From positions 1 through 22,705 of the IMG/VR virus record IMGVR_UViG_3300005613_003664: a stretch of 22,705 nucleotides of DNA. One strand, 5' to 3'. Positions 14,819-22,705 of this stretch are shown here, piece after piece. The stretch's first letter is position 1, and every line of letters starts with the position of its first letter. The position numbers were made by a program, and so were the translations under genes. Origin of the DNA: a virus. Under the pieces are notes generated by a model. The model saw only the letters and a program-made list of their open reading frames with translations, had not been told where the DNA came from and did not search any database.

Positions 14819-14855
14819 TTTGTATTTGCTATATTAAATTTGGGGTAGTTCGTCT

Positions 14856-14907
14856 TTTTTGAGTGGAATTGTTCAGGGATAAAACCCTGGACTTTTTCAC
14901 TTTAAAA
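14856..14907. other. Long strong hairpin in the intergenic region
   Basis: An 8-bp stem (GTTCAGGG 14871-14878 with CCCTGGAC 14885-14892, one G-T pair) closes the loop ATAAAA. Beyond a TT/TT internal loop another 8 bp pair (14861-14868 with 14895-14902), and after one T-T mismatch four more T-A pairs. In total about 20 pairs in 52 bases. It sits between the leaderless zinc gene and the replication operon. Candidates are a replication-origin cruciform, an operator or a structured RNA. Confidence 0.75.
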
Positions 14908-14919
14908 TAATTACACAAA

Positions 14920-15017
14920 CTATTTAAAGATTAAATCTTATTTATGTTTATTACTCTTCATAGGGAGAAACGAGTGATGAAATCAAGCGTCTTCCTGGGA
15001 AAGAGGTGATGAACAGA
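14920..15017 (+). promoter_or_regulatory. Promoter and leader of the replication operon, with possible 10-codon leader peptide
   Basis: A TATA-like CTATTTAAAG at 14920-14929 predicts a start near 14950. The leader has AGGGAG (14962-14967) placed nine bases before ATG 14977, which opens a ten-residue frame (MKSSVFLGKR). That frame stops at TGA 15007-15009, inside the perfect GAGGTGAT (15003-15010) that serves the next gene. Translation of this peptide could influence initiation downstream. The palindrome AAGATTAAATCTT is at 14927-14939. Confidence 0.45.
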
Positions 15018-15203
15018 ATGGAAAAGAACAAGGTGTATAATATTAAGGTCGAAGTTGCTGGAAAGATCTTATTGTATTCTAAATGTTTTATAACGGAGAT
15101 AACAAATAATTTTATCACGTTTATTGATTCTCACACAAATAAACCTATATCTTATAACATTAACGTTATAGTGTTTTATGAGGAGGTTAAAGATGTCCAG
15201 TAG
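15018..15203 (+). CDS. Small Sm-like beta-barrel protein (61 aa)
   Basis: The frame is open from 15006, but ATG 15018 lies seven bases after a perfect GAGGTGAT and gives MEKNKVYNIKVEVAGK. The rest is alternating hydrophobic (KCFITEITNNFITFIDSHTNKPISYNINVIVFYEEV), as in small beta-barrels of the Sm/SH3 type found beside replication genes in phages. Function unknown. Its end overlaps the helicase start by 11 bases, so the two are probably made together. Confidence 0.6.
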   Translation: MEKNKVYNIKVEVAGKILLYSKCFITEITNNFITFIDSHTNKPISYNINVIVFYEEVKDVQ

Positions 15204-16617
15204 TATCTATAAAATATGGAGAAATCATAAAATTGAAGAATTATTCAAAAAACATGATATTACTTCTAATGATGAAAAGGAAAAAGTACAAGATATATTA
15301 CATGAATTAAAAGATAAGGAAGTTTTAGAAAAGTCAATAAAATCTTTTACAGATAAAATGGACTTGGCACATAAAATAATATCGTGGAAAGAAAATAATA
15401 TCCCTGTAATGCCATTATATTATGATAAAGCGTGTATATGGTGGAGGTGGAACTCAGGAAAATTCTTATGGGAAATGATAGATGAGGTGGATTTAATGAA
15501 CTATGTTACGTGGAGTAGTCCGGCTAATACAATCAACTCAAAAGAAAGGAGTGAAATAATTCAGGCATTTAAACAAGTCGCAAGAGCTAATCAACCCATA
15601 GAAGCTAAAACAAGTTGGATTCAGTTCGGAGACGAGGTTGTTGACCTAGAAACTGGAGATAGGTTTACTGCATCATCATGTTATTTTTTAACTAATCCAC
15701 TACCATTTAAGTTAGGTAAAAGCGAGGACACGCCAAACATTGACAGAATATTTTCTGAATGGGTTGGAGAGGATAATGTTTTATTGTTGAAGGAGATTAT
15801 TGCATATTGTATGATTCGAGATTATCCAATACATCGTATATTCTGTTTTATTGGTTCTGGCCTGAATGGTAAAAGCAAATATTTAGAATTTCTAAGAAGG
15901 TTTATCGGTGGTTATAATGTATGTGCAACAGAACTTGATACTCTACTTAATTCTAGGTTTGAAGTAACAAGATTGCACAAAAAACTTGTTTGCCAAATGG
16001 GTGAAACTAATTTCAATGAAATGAATAAAACATCATTACTAAAAAAATTGTCTGGAGACGATTTAATAAACTTTGAGTACAAAAATAAAAATCCTTTTGA
16101 GGATAAGAATAGTGCAAAAATTCTTATAGCTACTAATAATTTACCAACAACTACGGATAAAACAAAGGGTTTCTATCGTAGATGGATAATTGTAGATTTT
16201 CCAAACGAGTTTTCAGAGAAAAAAGATATACTTTCTGAGATTCCAGAAGCGGAATATAATAATCTTGGAAATCAATTAATTCGTATTTTGATGGACTTAC
16301 TTAAAAAAAGAGAATTTCATAATGAAGGCTCGATTGATGAACGAATGGCAAAATATGAATCAAAAAGTAACTTTTTGGAGACATTCTTGAAGGATAGTAC
16401 TATAAGGGATGATGACTCATATATTACTAAATCAGATTTTAGTAAAAAGTTTATTTCATGGTGCAAAGAAAATAGACATCGTGAAATGTCTGAGACAAGT
16501 ATCGGCATTTCTATGAAAAAATTGGGGATTTCATCATCAAGGAAGTGGTTTGACTGGGTTTTTGATGGAAAAGGTGGTCAATTAAGGGTATGGGAGGGCT
16601 TAAAATGGTCTATTTAG
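15193..16617 (+). CDS. D5-type SF3 replicative helicase (474 aa), no recognisable primase domain
   Basis: ATG 15193 follows GAGGAGG at 15180-15186 by six bases; the frame itself opens at 15178. Residues 1-80 are charged helices. About 80-200 resemble the D5 N-terminal linker (SWIQFGDEVVDLETGDRF, LTNPLPFKLG). The SF3 ATPase has Walker A GSGLNGKS near 220-227, a Walker B-like LVCQMGETNF near 266-275, and motif C ILIATNNLP near 309-318 followed by the FYRRW arginine finger. A C-terminal winged-helix-like domain (about 395-474) ends in WEGLKWSI. Family members unwind DNA at the origin and are usually fused to a primase. No primase motifs are visible in the N-terminus, so priming must come from elsewhere. 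The stop codon lies in the first iteron of the presumed origin. Confidence 0.88.
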   Translation: MSSSIYKIWRNHKIEELFKKHDITSNDEKEKVQDILHELKDKEVLEKSIKSFTDKMDLAHKIISWKENNIPVMPLYYDKACIWWRWNSGKFLWEMIDEVDLMNYVTWSSPANTINSKERSEIIQAFKQVARANQPIEAKTSWIQFGDEVVDLETGDRFTASSCYFLTNPLPFKLGKSEDTPNIDRIFSEWVGEDNVLLLKEIIAYCMIRDYPIHRIFCFIGSGLNGKSKYLEFLRRFIGGYNVCATELDTLLNSRFEVTRLHKKLVCQMGETNFNEMNKTSLLKKLSGDDLINFEYKNKNPFEDKNSAKILIATNNLPTTTDKTKGFYRRWIIVDFPNEFSEKKDILSEIPEAEYNNLGNQLIRILMDLLKKREFHNEGSIDERMAKYESKSNFLETFLKDSTIRDDDSYITKSDFSKKFISWCKENRHREMSETSIGISMKKLGISSSRKWFDWVFDGKGGQLRVWEGLKWSI

Positions 16618-18837: not shown

Positions 18838-19346
18838 AACTTCATTTAGGTTGTGGGCGTAATAAATTAAAAGGATATACAAATTGTGATATATCTTCAG
18901 AAGTTAATCCTGACAAGTTGGTAAACTTGGAATCTCCATTAGACTTTGAAGATAATAGTGTGGAAGAAATAATTATTGAACATTGCTTAGAACATATTAA
19001 TAATTTATATCCTCTCCTAAATGAATTTCAAAGGATATGTTGTGATGGAGCTATAATAAAAATAAAAGTGCCTTATTTCTCTAGTGAGAGTGCTTTTAGT
19101 ACGATGACTCATGTAAGATTCTTTACACTGACAACTTTCGACTTTTTAGATGCAAGAAGTAAAGTTCATTATGATGCCCCAATGGTAGATATGAGAATAT
19201 TAAAAAAGAGATTGAGATGGAGAAGGATTTTTAGTTTTATGCACATCTTAAACAATTCTCAGAAATTATTAAGGATATACCAAGAAATATTATGTTGGAT
19301 AATTCCTGCTCGAGAGCTAGAAATATGGCTAGAGGTGAACAAATGA
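18834..19346 (+). CDS. Class I SAM-dependent methyltransferase (170 aa)
   Basis: The opening MKLHLGCGRNKLKGYTNCD is the glycine-rich SAM motif I with an acidic residue at the end of the second strand. DNSVEEIIIEHCLEHI follows as the usual 'fDxI...hvleHi' motif of Methyltransf_11-type enzymes, and KIKVPYFSSESAF forms the next strand. At 170 residues it is a minimal domain without added modules, often found in glycan loci. ATGA overlap with the TylF-like gene implies shared use, probably sugar or surface modification. Substrate cannot be read from the sequence. Confidence 0.75.
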   Translation: MKLHLGCGRNKLKGYTNCDISSEVNPDKLVNLESPLDFEDNSVEEIIIEHCLEHINNLYPLLNEFQRICCDGAIIKIKVPYFSSESAFSTMTHVRFFTLTTFDFLDARSKVHYDAPMVDMRILKKRLRWRRIFSFMHILNNSQKLLRIYQEILCWIIPARELEIWLEVNK

Positions 19347-19465
19347 TATTTCCACAAGAAATGAAGGTCACTTCCTATGGAAAGCCTGTGGAGTACGTGG
19401 AGGATGTCGCATCTCACAATATTAAACGAAATTTCAGTTTCGGCTCCCAAGCGAGGTTCAACTAA
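19343..19465 (+). other. Left boundary of the cassette array: half spacer, readable as a 40-aa frame
   Basis: A frame starting in ATGA with AGAGGTG upstream encodes 40 residues ending NIKRNFSFGSQARFN. The same ending pattern occurs when the spacers at 20546 (NNIICNF), 21143 (NANIKSNF) and 20129 (NPNIRRN) are translated, so this is the same DNA element. It has the ATATTA (19419-19424) and, at 19432-19444, TTTCAGTTTCGGC, the left private arm of the methyltransferase cassette. Only weak hairpins (19372-19382, 19403-19413) and no TAATAT partner arm are seen, so it looks like the outer half of a spacer. Whether the peptide is made is unknown. Confidence 0.55.
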
Positions 19466-19469
19466 AACT

Positions 19470-20168
19470 ATGGCAAGAAAATCATTTGACGCAAACAAAA
19501 AAGCAGGAATGGATGAGAATTATAGTATGAAGTTTAATACTCCCAAACAATTAGTTGAAGATTTGTTAAAACTTATTCCATTTGAAAAGGAAGATTTTGT
19601 TTTAGATGCTGGAAGTGGGAGGAATAAAGTTTGGTTTAATTGTATTCCAACAACTAATAAAGATGAGTGTGAATTAGATGAAGGTAAGGATTTTTACGAT
19701 TATAAAAATCAAGTTGATTGGGTTGTTGGAAATCCTCCCTTTCCAGAATTTATTGGCTTCCTTTTCAAATCAGCAGACATTTGCAGAAAAGGTTTTGGCT
19801 TTTTAACAAATCACTCAAGGATTAATCAAATAACTCCAAAACGCTTAGATGATTTGAAAGCAAAAGGTTTTCATCTAAGCAAGATACATATTTTTGGAGT
19901 TAAAATGTGGTTTGGGAGATATTACTTCCTGCTTTTTACGAAGAAGTCAAATGATTGTATAAGTTTTAGTAGAATAAATTATGGGAATACTATCGCCGAA
20001 ACTGAAACTCAAGCGAAATCAAAGATTTCGTCGTTTAATATGGGTTTAGAGGTTCAGAAATCAAAGATTTCTTCTCCCAAATTATCTCCTACGGAGATAA
20101 CTTCTCCAAACCCTAATATTAGGAGAAATTCGGACACACCCCTTAAAAGTATGGAGCAACTAAAATGA
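19470..20168 (+). CDS. DNA N6-adenine methyltransferase-like protein (232 aa), first cassette
   Basis: An upstream frame opens at 19377, but ATG 19470 gives the natural MARKSFDANKKAGMDE start. FNTPKQLVEDLLKLI leads into motif I (DFVLDAGSGRNKVWF). The catalytic motif IV is VVGNPPFPEF, the NPPF of N6-adenine methyltransferases. TNHSRINQITPKRL and KMWFGRYYFLLFTKK follow. The last 58 residues (from about 175) are low-complexity Ser/Lys and are encoded by the hairpin-rich spacer, so they are not part of the fold. Probable role: protecting the element's DNA from host restriction, or acting with the nuclease-like gene at 21329. The private repeats at 19432-19444 and 19995-20007 bound this cassette. 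Confidence 0.7.
   Translation: MARKSFDANKKAGMDENYSMKFNTPKQLVEDLLKLIPFEKEDFVLDAGSGRNKVWFNCIPTTNKDECELDEGKDFYDYKNQVDWVVGNPPFPEFIGFLFKSADICRKGFGFLTNHSRINQITPKRLDDLKAKGFHLSKIHIFGVKMWFGRYYFLLFTKKSNDCISFSRINYGNTIAETETQAKSKISSFNMGLEVQKSKISSPKLSPTEITSPNPNIRRNSDTPLKSMEQLK
19995..20164. repeat. Hairpin spacer 1 of the cassette array
   Basis: It opens with GCCGAAACTGAAA (19995-20007), the perfect inverse of 19432-19444. Hairpins: 20014-20030 and 20056-20072 (7-bp stems, loop AAA) and 20082-20100 (8-bp, loop TAC). Long stem: TAATAT (20036-20041) and GGGTTT (20042-20047) pair with AAACCC (20108-20113) and ATATTA (20116-20121), with a TA bulge. It ends with TTCGGACACACCCC (20129-20142), the left arm of the next cassette, and GGAGCAACTAAA before the next ATG. 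The first part is translated as the tail of the methyltransferase. Confidence 0.85.
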
Positions 20169-20530
20169 GAGAAATAAAATTTAGAGCTTGGAGTAGAGGG
20201 GAAATTATTTATGATGAAAGTTGTTATGGGGATGTATTAATGTTAAAAGAATTTGATGACCCAGAAGCAGAGATTATGCAATTCACAGGACTAAAAGATA
20301 AAAATGGAAAAGAAATTTATGAGGGAGATATTGTTAAAGTTAATGTTCCTTTTGATGCAGATATAACTTTTGGCTATAATGGTTTAGCGATTATTGAATA
20401 TATAAATCATAGAGCTTCATTTGAATTGTGCATGGGAGATGAAATTGTTGAAACAAAATGGGAACAGAAACAACTTAAAGTAATAGGAAACATCTACGAG
20501 AACCCAGAATTATTGGAGGAACAGAAATGA
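20165..20530 (+). CDS. YopX family protein (121 aa)
   Basis: MREIKFRAWS at the start, IMQFTGLKDKNGKEIYEGDIVKV in the middle and KQLKVIGNIYENPELLEE at the end are the diagnostic segments of the YopX family (PF09643), small beta-barrel proteins common in phages and mobile elements, whose molecular function is unknown. Length is normal. GGAG at 20153-20156 lies eight bases before the ATG, which overlaps the previous stop. The gene fills a cassette bounded by private arms at 20129-20142 and 20546-20559. Presence of a typical bacteriophage family in an archaeal-looking element suggests cassette acquisition. Confidence 0.9.
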   Translation: MREIKFRAWSRGEIIYDESCYGDVLMLKEFDDPEAEIMQFTGLKDKNGKEIYEGDIVKVNVPFDADITFGYNGLAIIEYINHRASFELCMGDEIVETKWEQKQLKVIGNIYENPELLEEQK

Positions 20531-20545
20531 ACTGTGCAACTAAAC

Positions 20546-20711
20546 GGGGTGTGTCCGAACTCAAGTTGAGCAAAGCTCAATCTCCTAATATCAATTTAAA
20601 GGATAATTCTAACGAATTATCCCAAATTTCATCTAACGATGAAACTTCTTTAAACAACAATATTATCTGCAATTTCAAAAACCCCCTCGTTAGTAGGGAG
20701 CAACTATAACA
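20546..20711. repeat. Hairpin spacer 2 of the cassette array
   Basis: It opens with GGGGTGTGTCCGAA (20546-20559), the perfect inverse of 20129-20142. Hairpins: 20566-20580 (6 bp, loop AAA), 20601-20622 (9 bp, loop TAAC), 20627-20644 (7 bp, loop TAAC). Long stem: TAATAT (20586-20591) and TTTAAAG (20595-20601) against CTTTAAA (20648-20654) and ATATTA (20660-20665). It ends with TTTCAAAAACCCCC (20673-20686), the arm of the next cassette, and GGGAGCAACTA. A 60-codon frame (20527-20709) runs through it without a stop and is probably not a folded protein. Confidence 0.85.
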
Positions 20712-20831
20712 ATGGCTAAAATAAAATGTTACAAATGTGGAAAGAAGATTGGGGAAACTAATTGGTGTTTTGTTTGTGCGGTTTCAAGATTAAATCAAAA
20801 TAGATTAAAATTAGGTGGAGGGAAAAAATGA
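20712..20831 (+). CDS. Tiny zinc-ribbon protein (39 aa)
   Basis: Thirty-nine residues: MAKIKCYKCGKKIG and then NWCFVCAVSRLNQ, giving two CxxC knuckles 10 residues apart, a minimal zinc ribbon, followed by a basic tail. GGGAG at 20696-20700 belongs to the spacer's conserved start signal. Its stop overlaps the winged-helix gene as ATGA, so the two share one cassette and may work as a pair. Confidence 0.65.
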   Translation: MAKIKCYKCGKKIGETNWCFVCAVSRLNQNRLKLGGGKK

Positions 20832-21175
20832 AAGGAAGAGGTAAAATAAAATGTGTTTTAGATAGTAGTGCTTTTAGAGAACTTTTATTAAGAATACATC
20901 ACGGGGAAAACTATGCACATAAAATTGCTTCAAGTATGGGAAAAAAATATAGTTCTCCAATTTTATTTCAACTTAAAAAACTTGAAGCAATGGGTTTATT
21001 AAAATCCAAAAAAGAGAAACTTCTTAACAAAACAATATTTCACCCAACTCCTTTAGGAATTACTACAATTTTATTTTGCGGTAGAATTGAAAAAGAAAAA
21101 AGAATGTATTTAAGGAGATTAAAAGATTTAGGTTTTAAACAAAACGAGGGGGTTCAACATGACGGGGGTTTTTGA
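20828..21175 (+). CDS. Winged-helix (MarR-like) DNA-binding protein (115 aa)
   Basis: AFRELLLRIHHGENYAHKIASSMGKKYSSPILFQLKKLEAMGLLKSKK is a standard winged-helix with recognition helix near SPILFQLKKLE (about residues 43-53). The wing follows (LLNKTIFHPTPLGITTILF), with 'TPLG' as in MarR/PadR-like regulators. A basic helix comes next (EKEKRMYLRRLKDLGF). GGTGGAGGG just upstream of the ATG is the ribosome-binding site. The last residues (NEGVQHDGGF) are encoded by the next spacer. Likely a regulator of cassette genes or of the host. Confidence 0.75.
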   Translation: MKGRGKIKCVLDSSAFRELLLRIHHGENYAHKIASSMGKKYSSPILFQLKKLEAMGLLKSKKEKLLNKTIFHPTPLGITTILFCGRIEKEKRMYLRRLKDLGFKQNEGVQHDGGF

Positions 21176-21328
21176 AACTCAAACTCTACGAGTTTGTCCT
21201 ACGGAGCAGATAATATGCGTTAAAGAGGATTTACTTCGTAAATCCCAAAATTCTCTAACGAGAACTTTCCTTAACGCTAATATTAAATCCAATTTCAGAC
21301 GGGGCTTACTCGTCGGGAGCAACTAAAA
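21143..21328. repeat. Hairpin spacer 3 of the cassette array
   Basis: It begins with two arms matching spacer 2: AACGAGGGGGTT (21143-21154, inverse of 20680-20691) and GGGGGTTTTTGAAA (21164-21177, inverse of 20673-20686). Hairpins: 21180-21196 (7 bp, loop TAC), 21227-21245 (8 bp, loop TTC), 21251-21264 (5 bp, loop TAAC). Long stem: TAATAT+GCGTTAA (21211-21223) with TTAACGC (21271-21277), bulge TA, ATATTA (21280-21285). It ends with TTTCAGACGGGGC (21293-21305) and GGGAGCAACTAAAA. A frame of 55 codons from ATG 21160 stays open across the element. Confidence 0.88.
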
Positions 21329-22072
21329 ATGAAGCATAATGATATTGTTTTGAAAATAAATAAAGAAAGGTTGGCATTACTTTTATGCCATAAATTTGGC
21401 GATATGGGTTGTTGGAGTCCTTTTCATTGGGTTGTTCAGAAGAAAATTGATGATTGGAAACAAGAAGAAACTGCCCATCTATTACAAACTTTAAGGGAAG
21501 AAACTTTTGACAATCTAAAGGATATAAAAGAGAAGTTTGTAGAAGCAAGTAAATCTATTTTAGAATTGTCAAAAGAAAAAAGTTTGCAGATTGAAAAAAC
21601 ATTTGAGTTTCCAATAATAAAAGGAGATGGGCAGTATAAATGCACAAAAGGATTTATTGATTTAATTGTGCATTGTCGTCCAATCAGAATACATCAATTT
21701 TCAACATACCAAAAAGACAACCCAATAGAATTTGTTATTGAAATTAAAAAGGAAAAGGACTTTGATGATTTTGGAGATATACTTCGCCAAATTAAAGAGT
21801 ATAGGGAATACTATAATACTTATGGCATAAAAAGATGGACAAGTCAAGTAATGCCAACAAATGAAGAACACAGATATGGAAACTCTGGAAATGATTTTAT
21901 TTTCTGTGTTCTTTCAACTAAAATTCCAAACAATATCAAAGAGTTATTTGAGGACGAGGGAATTATGTGCTTAGAGCTTGATAGTCTAAACGCCCCGTCT
22001 GAAACTTCGCCTGAAGGCGATTCTGCTACGCAGAAGGATTTAATATGCGTTAAAGAGGAGTTTCAAAAATGA
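21329..22072 (+). CDS. PD-(D/E)XK nuclease-like protein (247 aa)
   Basis: The core reads KGFIDLIVHC (catalytic Asp), then about 25 residues later EFVIEIKKEKDF (the ExK), then DILRQIKEYREYY (the Gln of motif IV with helix). This order and spacing define PD-(D/E)XK nucleases, and the IEIK and QIKEYR motifs are strong. The N-terminal 85 residues are helical and unassigned (HKFGDMGCWSPFHWVV). The last 27 or so residues are encoded by the next spacer and are low in complexity. The start has GGGAG nine bases upstream. As part of the same array as an adenine methyltransferase it could be a restriction or defence enzyme, or a recombination nuclease. The cassette arms are 21293-21305 and 21992-22004. 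Confidence 0.7.
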   Translation: MKHNDIVLKINKERLALLLCHKFGDMGCWSPFHWVVQKKIDDWKQEETAHLLQTLREETFDNLKDIKEKFVEASKSILELSKEKSLQIEKTFEFPIIKGDGQYKCTKGFIDLIVHCRPIRIHQFSTYQKDNPIEFVIEIKKEKDFDDFGDILRQIKEYREYYNTYGIKRWTSQVMPTNEEHRYGNSGNDFIFCVLSTKIPNNIKELFEDEGIMCLELDSLNAPSETSPEGDSATQKDLICVKEEFQK

Positions 22073-22162
22073 AACTCTCCAAATTCCTTTCAGGAACTTT
22101 CCTTAACGCTAATATTAAACTCAATTCGCAAGTCCTCCTCCAAGTGGGGCAATCAGATTAAA
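21992..22162. repeat. Hairpin spacer 4 of the cassette array
   Basis: It opens with GCCCCGTCTGAAA (21992-22004), the perfect inverse of 21293-21305. Hairpins: 22007-22020 (5 bp, loop TGAA), 22021-22035 (6 bp, loop TAC), 22058-22077 (8 bp, loop AAAA), 22084-22096 (5 bp, loop TTC). Long stem: TTTAATAT+GCGTTAA (22039-22053) with TTAACGC (22103-22109), bulge TA, ATATTAAA (22112-22119). The 3' part (AATTCGCAAGTCC, about 22123-22135) should be the arm of a next cassette, but I find no partner before or after the contig junction. A short frame (22069-22161, MKLSKFLSG...) is open here. Confidence 0.85.
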
Positions 22163-22273
22163 ATGGCTAATATAATAAAAGAAATCTTTTGGAAAGGAAA
22201 AACCGAGATGGGAGTAGTTTGGCTTATGTTTATTTTAGGATTAATCTTTGGGTTTTTCCTAAGGAGTTGTTAA
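22163..22273 (+). CDS. Single-pass membrane miniprotein (36 aa)
   Basis: Thirty-six residues: a basic start (MANIIKEIFWKGKTEMG), then one hydrophobic helix (VVWLMFILGLIFGFFL) and RSC. It follows spacer 4 and stops directly before the ATG of the junction-crossing membrane gene (TAA-ATG). The spacer's start signal here is weaker (GGGGCAATCAGATTAAA). Function unknown. Confidence 0.5.
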   Translation: MANIIKEIFWKGKTEMGVVWLMFILGLIFGFFLRSC

Positions 22274-22705
22274 ATGATAAAGAAAACTAAAAATCCAAAA
22301 AGAGTAAGTATAACAAAATTAATAGTTTTTACTATGTATGCTTTTATTGTAGGAATTATTGGAGTTTCACTTCCAAAAACTATTAATTTTATAGAAGTAT
22401 TTTTAATCGGAGCAGGAGTTTTTATAGTTATTTTGCTTGTCTTAGGTTTTATTGGTTATAGTTTAATGTATGCTCTAACAACTGGAAGCGAAACTATAAC
22501 AATAAAAGAGAAATGGGTTAAGTATCATGGAGACGACGCAAAATATCTTGTAAGTTCAATAGATGGACAAGTTTTTCAAATCACAGATACTATAATTAAG
22601 TGGAGATGGAATAGTAGTGATTTGTATGCTTCTTTGGATGCAAACCAAACTTGTCAGATAAAAACTCAAGGATGGAGATTTCCATTGTTTTCCGATTATA
22701 AAAAT
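22274..22705 (+). CDS. 5' part of junction-crossing small membrane protein
   Basis: It starts MIKKTKNPKRVSITKL with AAGGAG ten bases upstream. Two hydrophobic helices lie at about residues 16-34 and 42-66, then a soluble C-terminal half. The frame is cut by the contig end in its 144th codon and completed at 1-147, giving 151 residues in the circle. The arrangement, two helices followed by an aromatic C-terminal domain with GWRFPLFS, resembles small membrane proteins in phages whose role is unknown. Confidence 0.85.
   Translation, partial: MIKKTKNPKRVSITKLIVFTMYAFIVGIIGVSLPKTINFIEVFLIGAGVFIVILLVLGFIGYSLMYALTTGSETITIKEKWVKYHGDDAKYLVSSIDGQVFQITDTIIKWRWNSSDLYASLDANQTCQIKTQGWRFPLFSDYKN
22583..22705. 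repeat. Right copy of 123-bp terminal direct repeat
   Basis: Identical to 1-123; see that entry. Removing one copy leaves the 22,582-bp circle. Confidence 0.95.

Follow-up and report, generated by a model that had tools for sequence, protein, structure and literature searches.

The DNA analysed here, which we refer to as the window, is the whole linear IMG/VR record IMGVR_UViG_3300005613_003664 (22,705 bases). Its last part carries a series of cassettes on the + strand. Cassette 1 (19422..20118) contains a DNA methyltransferase-like gene, recognised by eye from an NPPF motif and without a Pfam match, and has an arm pair at 19432-19444/19995-20007. It ends in an attC-like site (19995..20118) comprising the back arm, hairpins and an inner stem up to the crossover, and the putative crossover A^TTA would lie at both ends of the cassette. 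Cassette 2 (20119..20662; arm pair 20129-20142/20546-20559; attC-like site 20546..20662) encodes a YopX-family protein (PF09643, 20165-20530). Cassette 3 (20663..21282; arm pair 20673-20686/21164-21177; site 21164..21282) has a small zinc-ribbon-like ORF and a winged-helix-like ORF (20828-21175), and cassette 4 (21283..22114; arm pair 21293-21305/21992-22004; site 21992..22114) has a nuclease-like ORF (21329-22072) with an EFVIEIKKE motif seen by eye and no Pfam match. The boundary before cassette 5 reads TAATATTA-AACTC-AAT (22110-22125), and cassette 5 itself (22115..22705), whose front arm begins TTCGCAAGTCCTCC, is cut by the end of the record. An Rfam search of the window gave no match.

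Ahead of cassette 1 lies an attI-like insertion point (19371..19431, + strand), in which CTTCCTATGGAAAG (19371-19384) is followed by CAATATTA-AACGA-AA (19417-19431). This first boundary is without a preceding site stem, which the other boundaries have. The same arrangement, TTTCCAnTGGAAAG / (C)ATATTA-N5-AA and then the arm, precedes the first cassette in loci L044 and L211, and first-cassette fronts of ATATTA or GTATTA type were also found in L093, L187 and L213. The viral cassettes of L211 (2508-6871) carry methyltransferase-like genes and an RNA-ligase-like gene, identified by eye; such a cargo seems well fitted to the evasion of host defence.

Most viral-type sites have a single fixed reading frame that is open through the site into the leader of the next cassette (window 20031-22125; L003, L005, L006, L010, L013, L026 and L050). 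The resulting peptide resembles FNMGLEV..SPKSP..TSPNPNIKLN, and most of the sites with the open frame are 87, 93 or 99 nt long, which are multiples of three. This frame may couple the translation of neighbouring cassettes.

Private cassette ends and a shared site core

An earlier note on this DNA had described four cassettes, each bounded by its own perfect inverted match of 13-14 bp. All four (4/4) were recovered at the positions given above, and all five arm pairs that the note listed are exact reverse complements. The fifth is a second, overlapping private match further inside cassette 3 (20680-20691/21143-21154; AACCCCCTCGTT/AACGAGGGGGTT), which may be left over from an earlier pairing of arms. 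In a check against 2000 dinucleotide shuffles of 19301-22705, with the partner sought within 900 nt, a 13-nt perfect inverted match arose at 0/8000 boundary positions, compared with the 4/4 observed. Nested within the arm pairing is another private one, of 5 nt: the 5-mer that follows TAATATTA at the front of each cassette is reverse-complementary to the one that precedes TAATAT at its own back (aacga/tcgtt, ggaga/tctcc, tctgc/gcaga and aatcc/ggatt for cassettes 1-4).

Both pairings extend beyond the window. Across 66 viral and archaeal cassettes lying between consecutive sites, 3.80 of the 5 positions of the 5-mer agreed with the cassette's own back; comparison across one and the same site gave 2.12, and shuffled sequence 2.00±0.14. 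A 13-nt arm matched at 12/13 or better in 39/66 own pairs, 18/4180 mismatched pairs and 0/66 pairs across the same site. This confirms that the pairing of a cassette's two ends is what is kept. Retention within the cassette but not across the junction would follow from a site whose halves come together only in an excised circle. In the remaining 27/66 cassettes, the own arm pairs were weaker; missed sites in between, decay and real exceptions are candidate causes. Patescibacterial arrays gave similar figures (5-mer 3.93 versus 2.48±0.20; arms 9/28 versus 0/692). As a positive control we used two class 1 integrons with three scorable cassettes, in which the cassette front matched its own back over 12-13 nt from GTT, indicating that private ends are a property of integrons. 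R-box pairing has been given as 9-11 nt (PMC2727003). The private-arm rule provides an exact way to delimit cassettes.

The core YAATATTA-N5-AAT is common to every boundary in the window, and a spacer stem to all but the first. The earlier note had taken the private arms to argue against a shared recombinase site. However, this core is such a site, and since integron-type sites should have private matching ends, as the class 1 control does, the arms are no argument against it. The note's statement that boundary sequences differ between cassettes thus applies to the arms, but not to the core and spacer stem. Two subtypes of the site were found, TAAC/GTTA in chromosomal arrays and TAAT/ATTA in viral arrays. 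By homology, the crossover would be G^TTA or A^TTA respectively, which fits the cassette junctions, including the step in identity between the window and L003 described below. Given the difference between cellular GTTA and viral ATTA, the enzyme may also differ. The R boxes RYYYAAC and GTTRRRY were both present in 6/92 GTTA sites. All sites within one array point the same way (22/22 in the Patescibacteria loci).

By thermodynamic estimates, sites reconstituted as in a circle were more stable than integrated sites in 39/39 cases, a result partly built in because these 39 were picked for strong arms, and the bottom strand was more stable than the top in 37/39. Triloops reading GNA made up 189/263 on the bottom strand and 1 on the top, compared with 100 and 56 of 1422 in shuffled sequence, and a 2-nt bulge is conserved in the sites. 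DNA minihairpins with GNA loops are unusually stable (Yoshizawa et al. 1997, cited in PMC6479982), and integrons use folded single-stranded bottom-strand DNA as their site (PMC2727003). On the basis of the GNA triloops and the strand energies, we favour folded single-stranded bottom-strand DNA as the acting form of the present sites. Among the three explanations that the earlier note had offered for end pairing, single-stranded DNA folding for cassette exchange is best supported; its suggestion of mRNA end-pairing runs against the loop sequences and strand energies, which point to bottom-strand DNA.

Occurrence in viruses and cells, and adjoining recombinases

Pattern scans detected the same site in eight other viral records and in archaeal contigs of the Pacearchaeota bin Meg19_1012_Bin_465 and archaeon BMS3Abin17. 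Many pattern matches, in Borrelia, Prochlorococcus, Clostridia and others, lacked arms and look like chance, as do most later pattern matches; among the new loci, sites were present only in L211 and L213. Searches with two covariance models, R1 and R2, recovered sites in 9/9 records first tested, in 52/378 genomes of the class of the BMS3Abin17 genome and in 65/240 genomes of a Patescibacteria class, compared with control frequencies of 2/152 (the phylum of a methanogen) and 1/148 (a clostridial class). The patescibacterial class had originally been chosen as a negative control and came out positive, and its positives were verified by private arms and integrases. The Patescibacteria loci L286-L305 show the same arrays, private ends and a divergent Xer-type recombinase, indicating that the system crosses domains. 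Those array-bearing genomes that carry a name are MAGs or metagenome contigs. BMS3Abin17 is placed in NCBI among unclassified Archaea only; we take the array-bearing archaeal class to belong to DPANN from the Pacearchaeota bin and general knowledge.

Cellular arrays (20+ loci) adjoin a tyrosine recombinase of about 260-300 aa that is encoded on the other strand, and they run away from this gene. In many of them, the first front arm follows GTTA-N5-AA and is at most ~170 nt from where the recombinase begins. Of three array-linked enzymes tested, two scored above the cut-off of NF040815 (archaeal XerA), while TIGR02249 scores were below cut-off. The best PDB match of an array-linked enzyme was Pyrococcus abyssi XerA (4a8e, E 2.5e-48). 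The IntI insertion is absent, with a motif spacing of 87-92 as against 133 in IntI1. Array-linked enzymes were separated from the housekeeping XerA of the same lineages by one label change with support of 91/91, in a set without L137 (a fragmentary sequence) and L143 (searched in its near surroundings only); the fuller set, with these two counted as unlinked, required 2 label changes versus 10.4 when shuffled. Canonical IntI scored above cut-off in 1/43 array genomes. This genome, G597 of the Patescibacteria, encodes it on a contig other than that of the arrays (435 bits, G597:C17:2627-3577). The tyrosine recombinase of the Pacearchaeota genome is of a zinc-ribbon type rather than the array-linked type.

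PF00589 had no match in the window or in records G001-G006, and among viral records a nearby recombinase candidate was found only in G386. There, an eight-site ATTA array is followed by a 196-aa Phage_integrase protein (G386 14833-15423; L279 1159-1749), a tyrosine recombinase consisting of the catalytic domain only. A BMS3Abin17 contig (L064) has a 49% homologue at its extreme end, and no homologues were found in other viral contigs. The window also encodes a resolvase-family serine recombinase of 165 aa (498-995, PF00239). It was rejected as the shared enzyme, being present in the window only among the array-bearing records tested.

The methyltransferase cassette of the window recurs beside different neighbours in L003, a record of a head-tail virus with terminase-, portal- and capsid-like genes recognised by eye. 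Identity between the two is ~40% outside the cassette and mostly 87-100% inside it, and the rise lies at ATATTA, the putative crossover. In the hairpins of this cassette, the sequence has changed and the pairing has been kept, for example GAAATC-AAA-GATTTC versus GAACTC-TAC-GAGTTC. At the level of sequence, the cassette has evidently been exchanged between unrelated viruses.

Comparison with known systems and alternative explanations

In a canonical integron, the integrase IntI has an insertion near patch III, the R boxes read RYYYAAC and GTTRRRY, the folded bottom strand takes its polarity from unpaired extra-helical bases, and exchange takes place at G^TT; a CALIN is a cluster of attC sites lacking an integrase. 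The present systems share with canonical integrons, among them class 1 integrons, superintegrons and the archaeal integrons, their arrays of cassettes in one orientation, every one with a recombination site of its own; cassette ends that are privately complementary (R'' at the back, R' front at the cassette start); and, in cellular arrays, a divergent tyrosine recombinase with an attI-like site between. A folded bottom strand and a crossover next to TT would be further points in common. They differ in their XerA-like enzymes without the IntI insertion, in R boxes that are mostly off consensus, in the viral ATTA in place of GTTA, in an extra private outer stem of 12-14 nt beyond the R-box stem, and in several GNA hairpins between these two stems. 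Site model R2 gave 0 matches in the two class 1 integrons, which marks the sites as distinct from class 1 attC. Because neither the IntI insertion nor, in most sites, the canonical pair of boxes was found, we do not class these arrays as canonical integrons. The window, unlike integrase-bearing integrons, has an attI-like site only and no integrase. In this it resembles a CALIN, as do most viral records with arrays, but its sites are not canonical attC, and in G386 a small tyrosine recombinase follows the array. XerA/dif (P. abyssi XerA) involves the same enzyme family, but the substrate here is an array of folded sites rather than one dif, and the array-linked enzymes stand apart from the housekeeping copies that these genomes also carry.

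Archaeal integrons with canonical IntI and attC have been reported (Ghaly et al. 2022, PMC9668308), and since that survey included Nanoarchaeota, some of the present sites could be among its attC. We found no description of integrons of the present type in DPANN, Patescibacteria or archaeal viruses in the literature searched, which was without preprints and most subscription journals. The earlier note's remark that no described system has this exact plan thus holds for the present lineage within that literature, but not for the plan itself, which integrons follow.

One alternative is that the arrays belong to the familiar integrons or CALINs, as described from archaea in 2022, and that only their attC are divergent. 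The layout of arrays, divergent integrase, attI-like site and private ends is the same, canonical IntI also occurs in G597, and NCBI names NF040815 a 'tyrosine recombinase/integron integrase'. However, the motif spacing and TIGR02249 scores of the array enzymes, the rarity of canonical IntI among array genomes and of the paired R boxes among GTTA sites, and the failure of the site model to match class 1 integrons make this reading unlikely. Considerably less probable still is that exchange occurs only by homologous recombination between spacers, the arms being mRNA structures that protect or insulate each gene. Spacers are in places similar enough to recombine, front arms lie near ribosome-binding sites and one frame is open through most viral sites, but such exchange would not keep a cassette's own ends matched when none match across the junction, the GNA loops are on the bottom, non-mRNA strand, and the adjacent divergent recombinase and attI-like sites would go unexplained. 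The idea in the earlier note of a cassette-specific inversion, carried out by the element's serine recombinase at the private repeats, is almost certainly wrong: a resolvase-family gene does exist in the window, but none of the 8 further records or genomes with arrays that were tested has PF00239, the sites of an array all point one way, and 13-bp cassette-private arms offer a serine recombinase no common site.

Proposed mechanism and significance

We consider it very probable that 19422-22705 is an integron-like array of promoterless cassettes in a DPANN archaeal virus, CALIN-like in having no detected integrase. Private pairing, the shared core, arrays, the adjacency of Xer-type integrases in cells, attI-like sites and viral cassette exchange can be read from the sequences themselves; the exact crossover, the strand, the circle intermediate, the host and the enzyme of the viral A^TTA subtype are what we infer. 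In the proposed model, each cassette would have one composite recombination site, split by a crossover that is probably A^TTA inside YAATATTA. The front part would be about 25 nt (TTA-N5-AAT-arm), and the back part would consist of arm', small hairpins, N5', TAATAT, the inner stem and the 2-nt bulge. Excision to a circle would join the halves, so that, as in the logic of the integron attC, the site would be whole only there. The joined bottom strand would fold into a branched hairpin with the private outer stem, and a tyrosine recombinase would then insert the circle at the attI-like site or at another such site.

Recombination of folded attC sites is considered to require the IntI-specific insertion (PMC8138268, PMC9668308). 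Here, Xer-type enzymes without this insertion adjoin arrays of folded-site cassettes. We lean towards the view that these represent a second integron lineage, one that relies on XerA-like recombinases lacking the IntI insertion, is widespread among DPANN archaea and Patescibacteria, and provides DPANN viruses with cassettes; it would be either an ancestral form of the integron or an independent invention of folded-site capture. The cassette system appears to be of an undescribed, integron-like type and is widespread in two groups of very small prokaryotes, one archaeal and one bacterial, with sites in ~1/7 of the sampled genomes of the DPANN class and ~1/4 of those of the Patescibacteria class. 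It is a concrete route by which genes for methyltransferases, nucleases and the like could pass among ultrasmall symbionts and the viruses that infect them, and it makes directly testable whether integrons arose from Xer recombinases.
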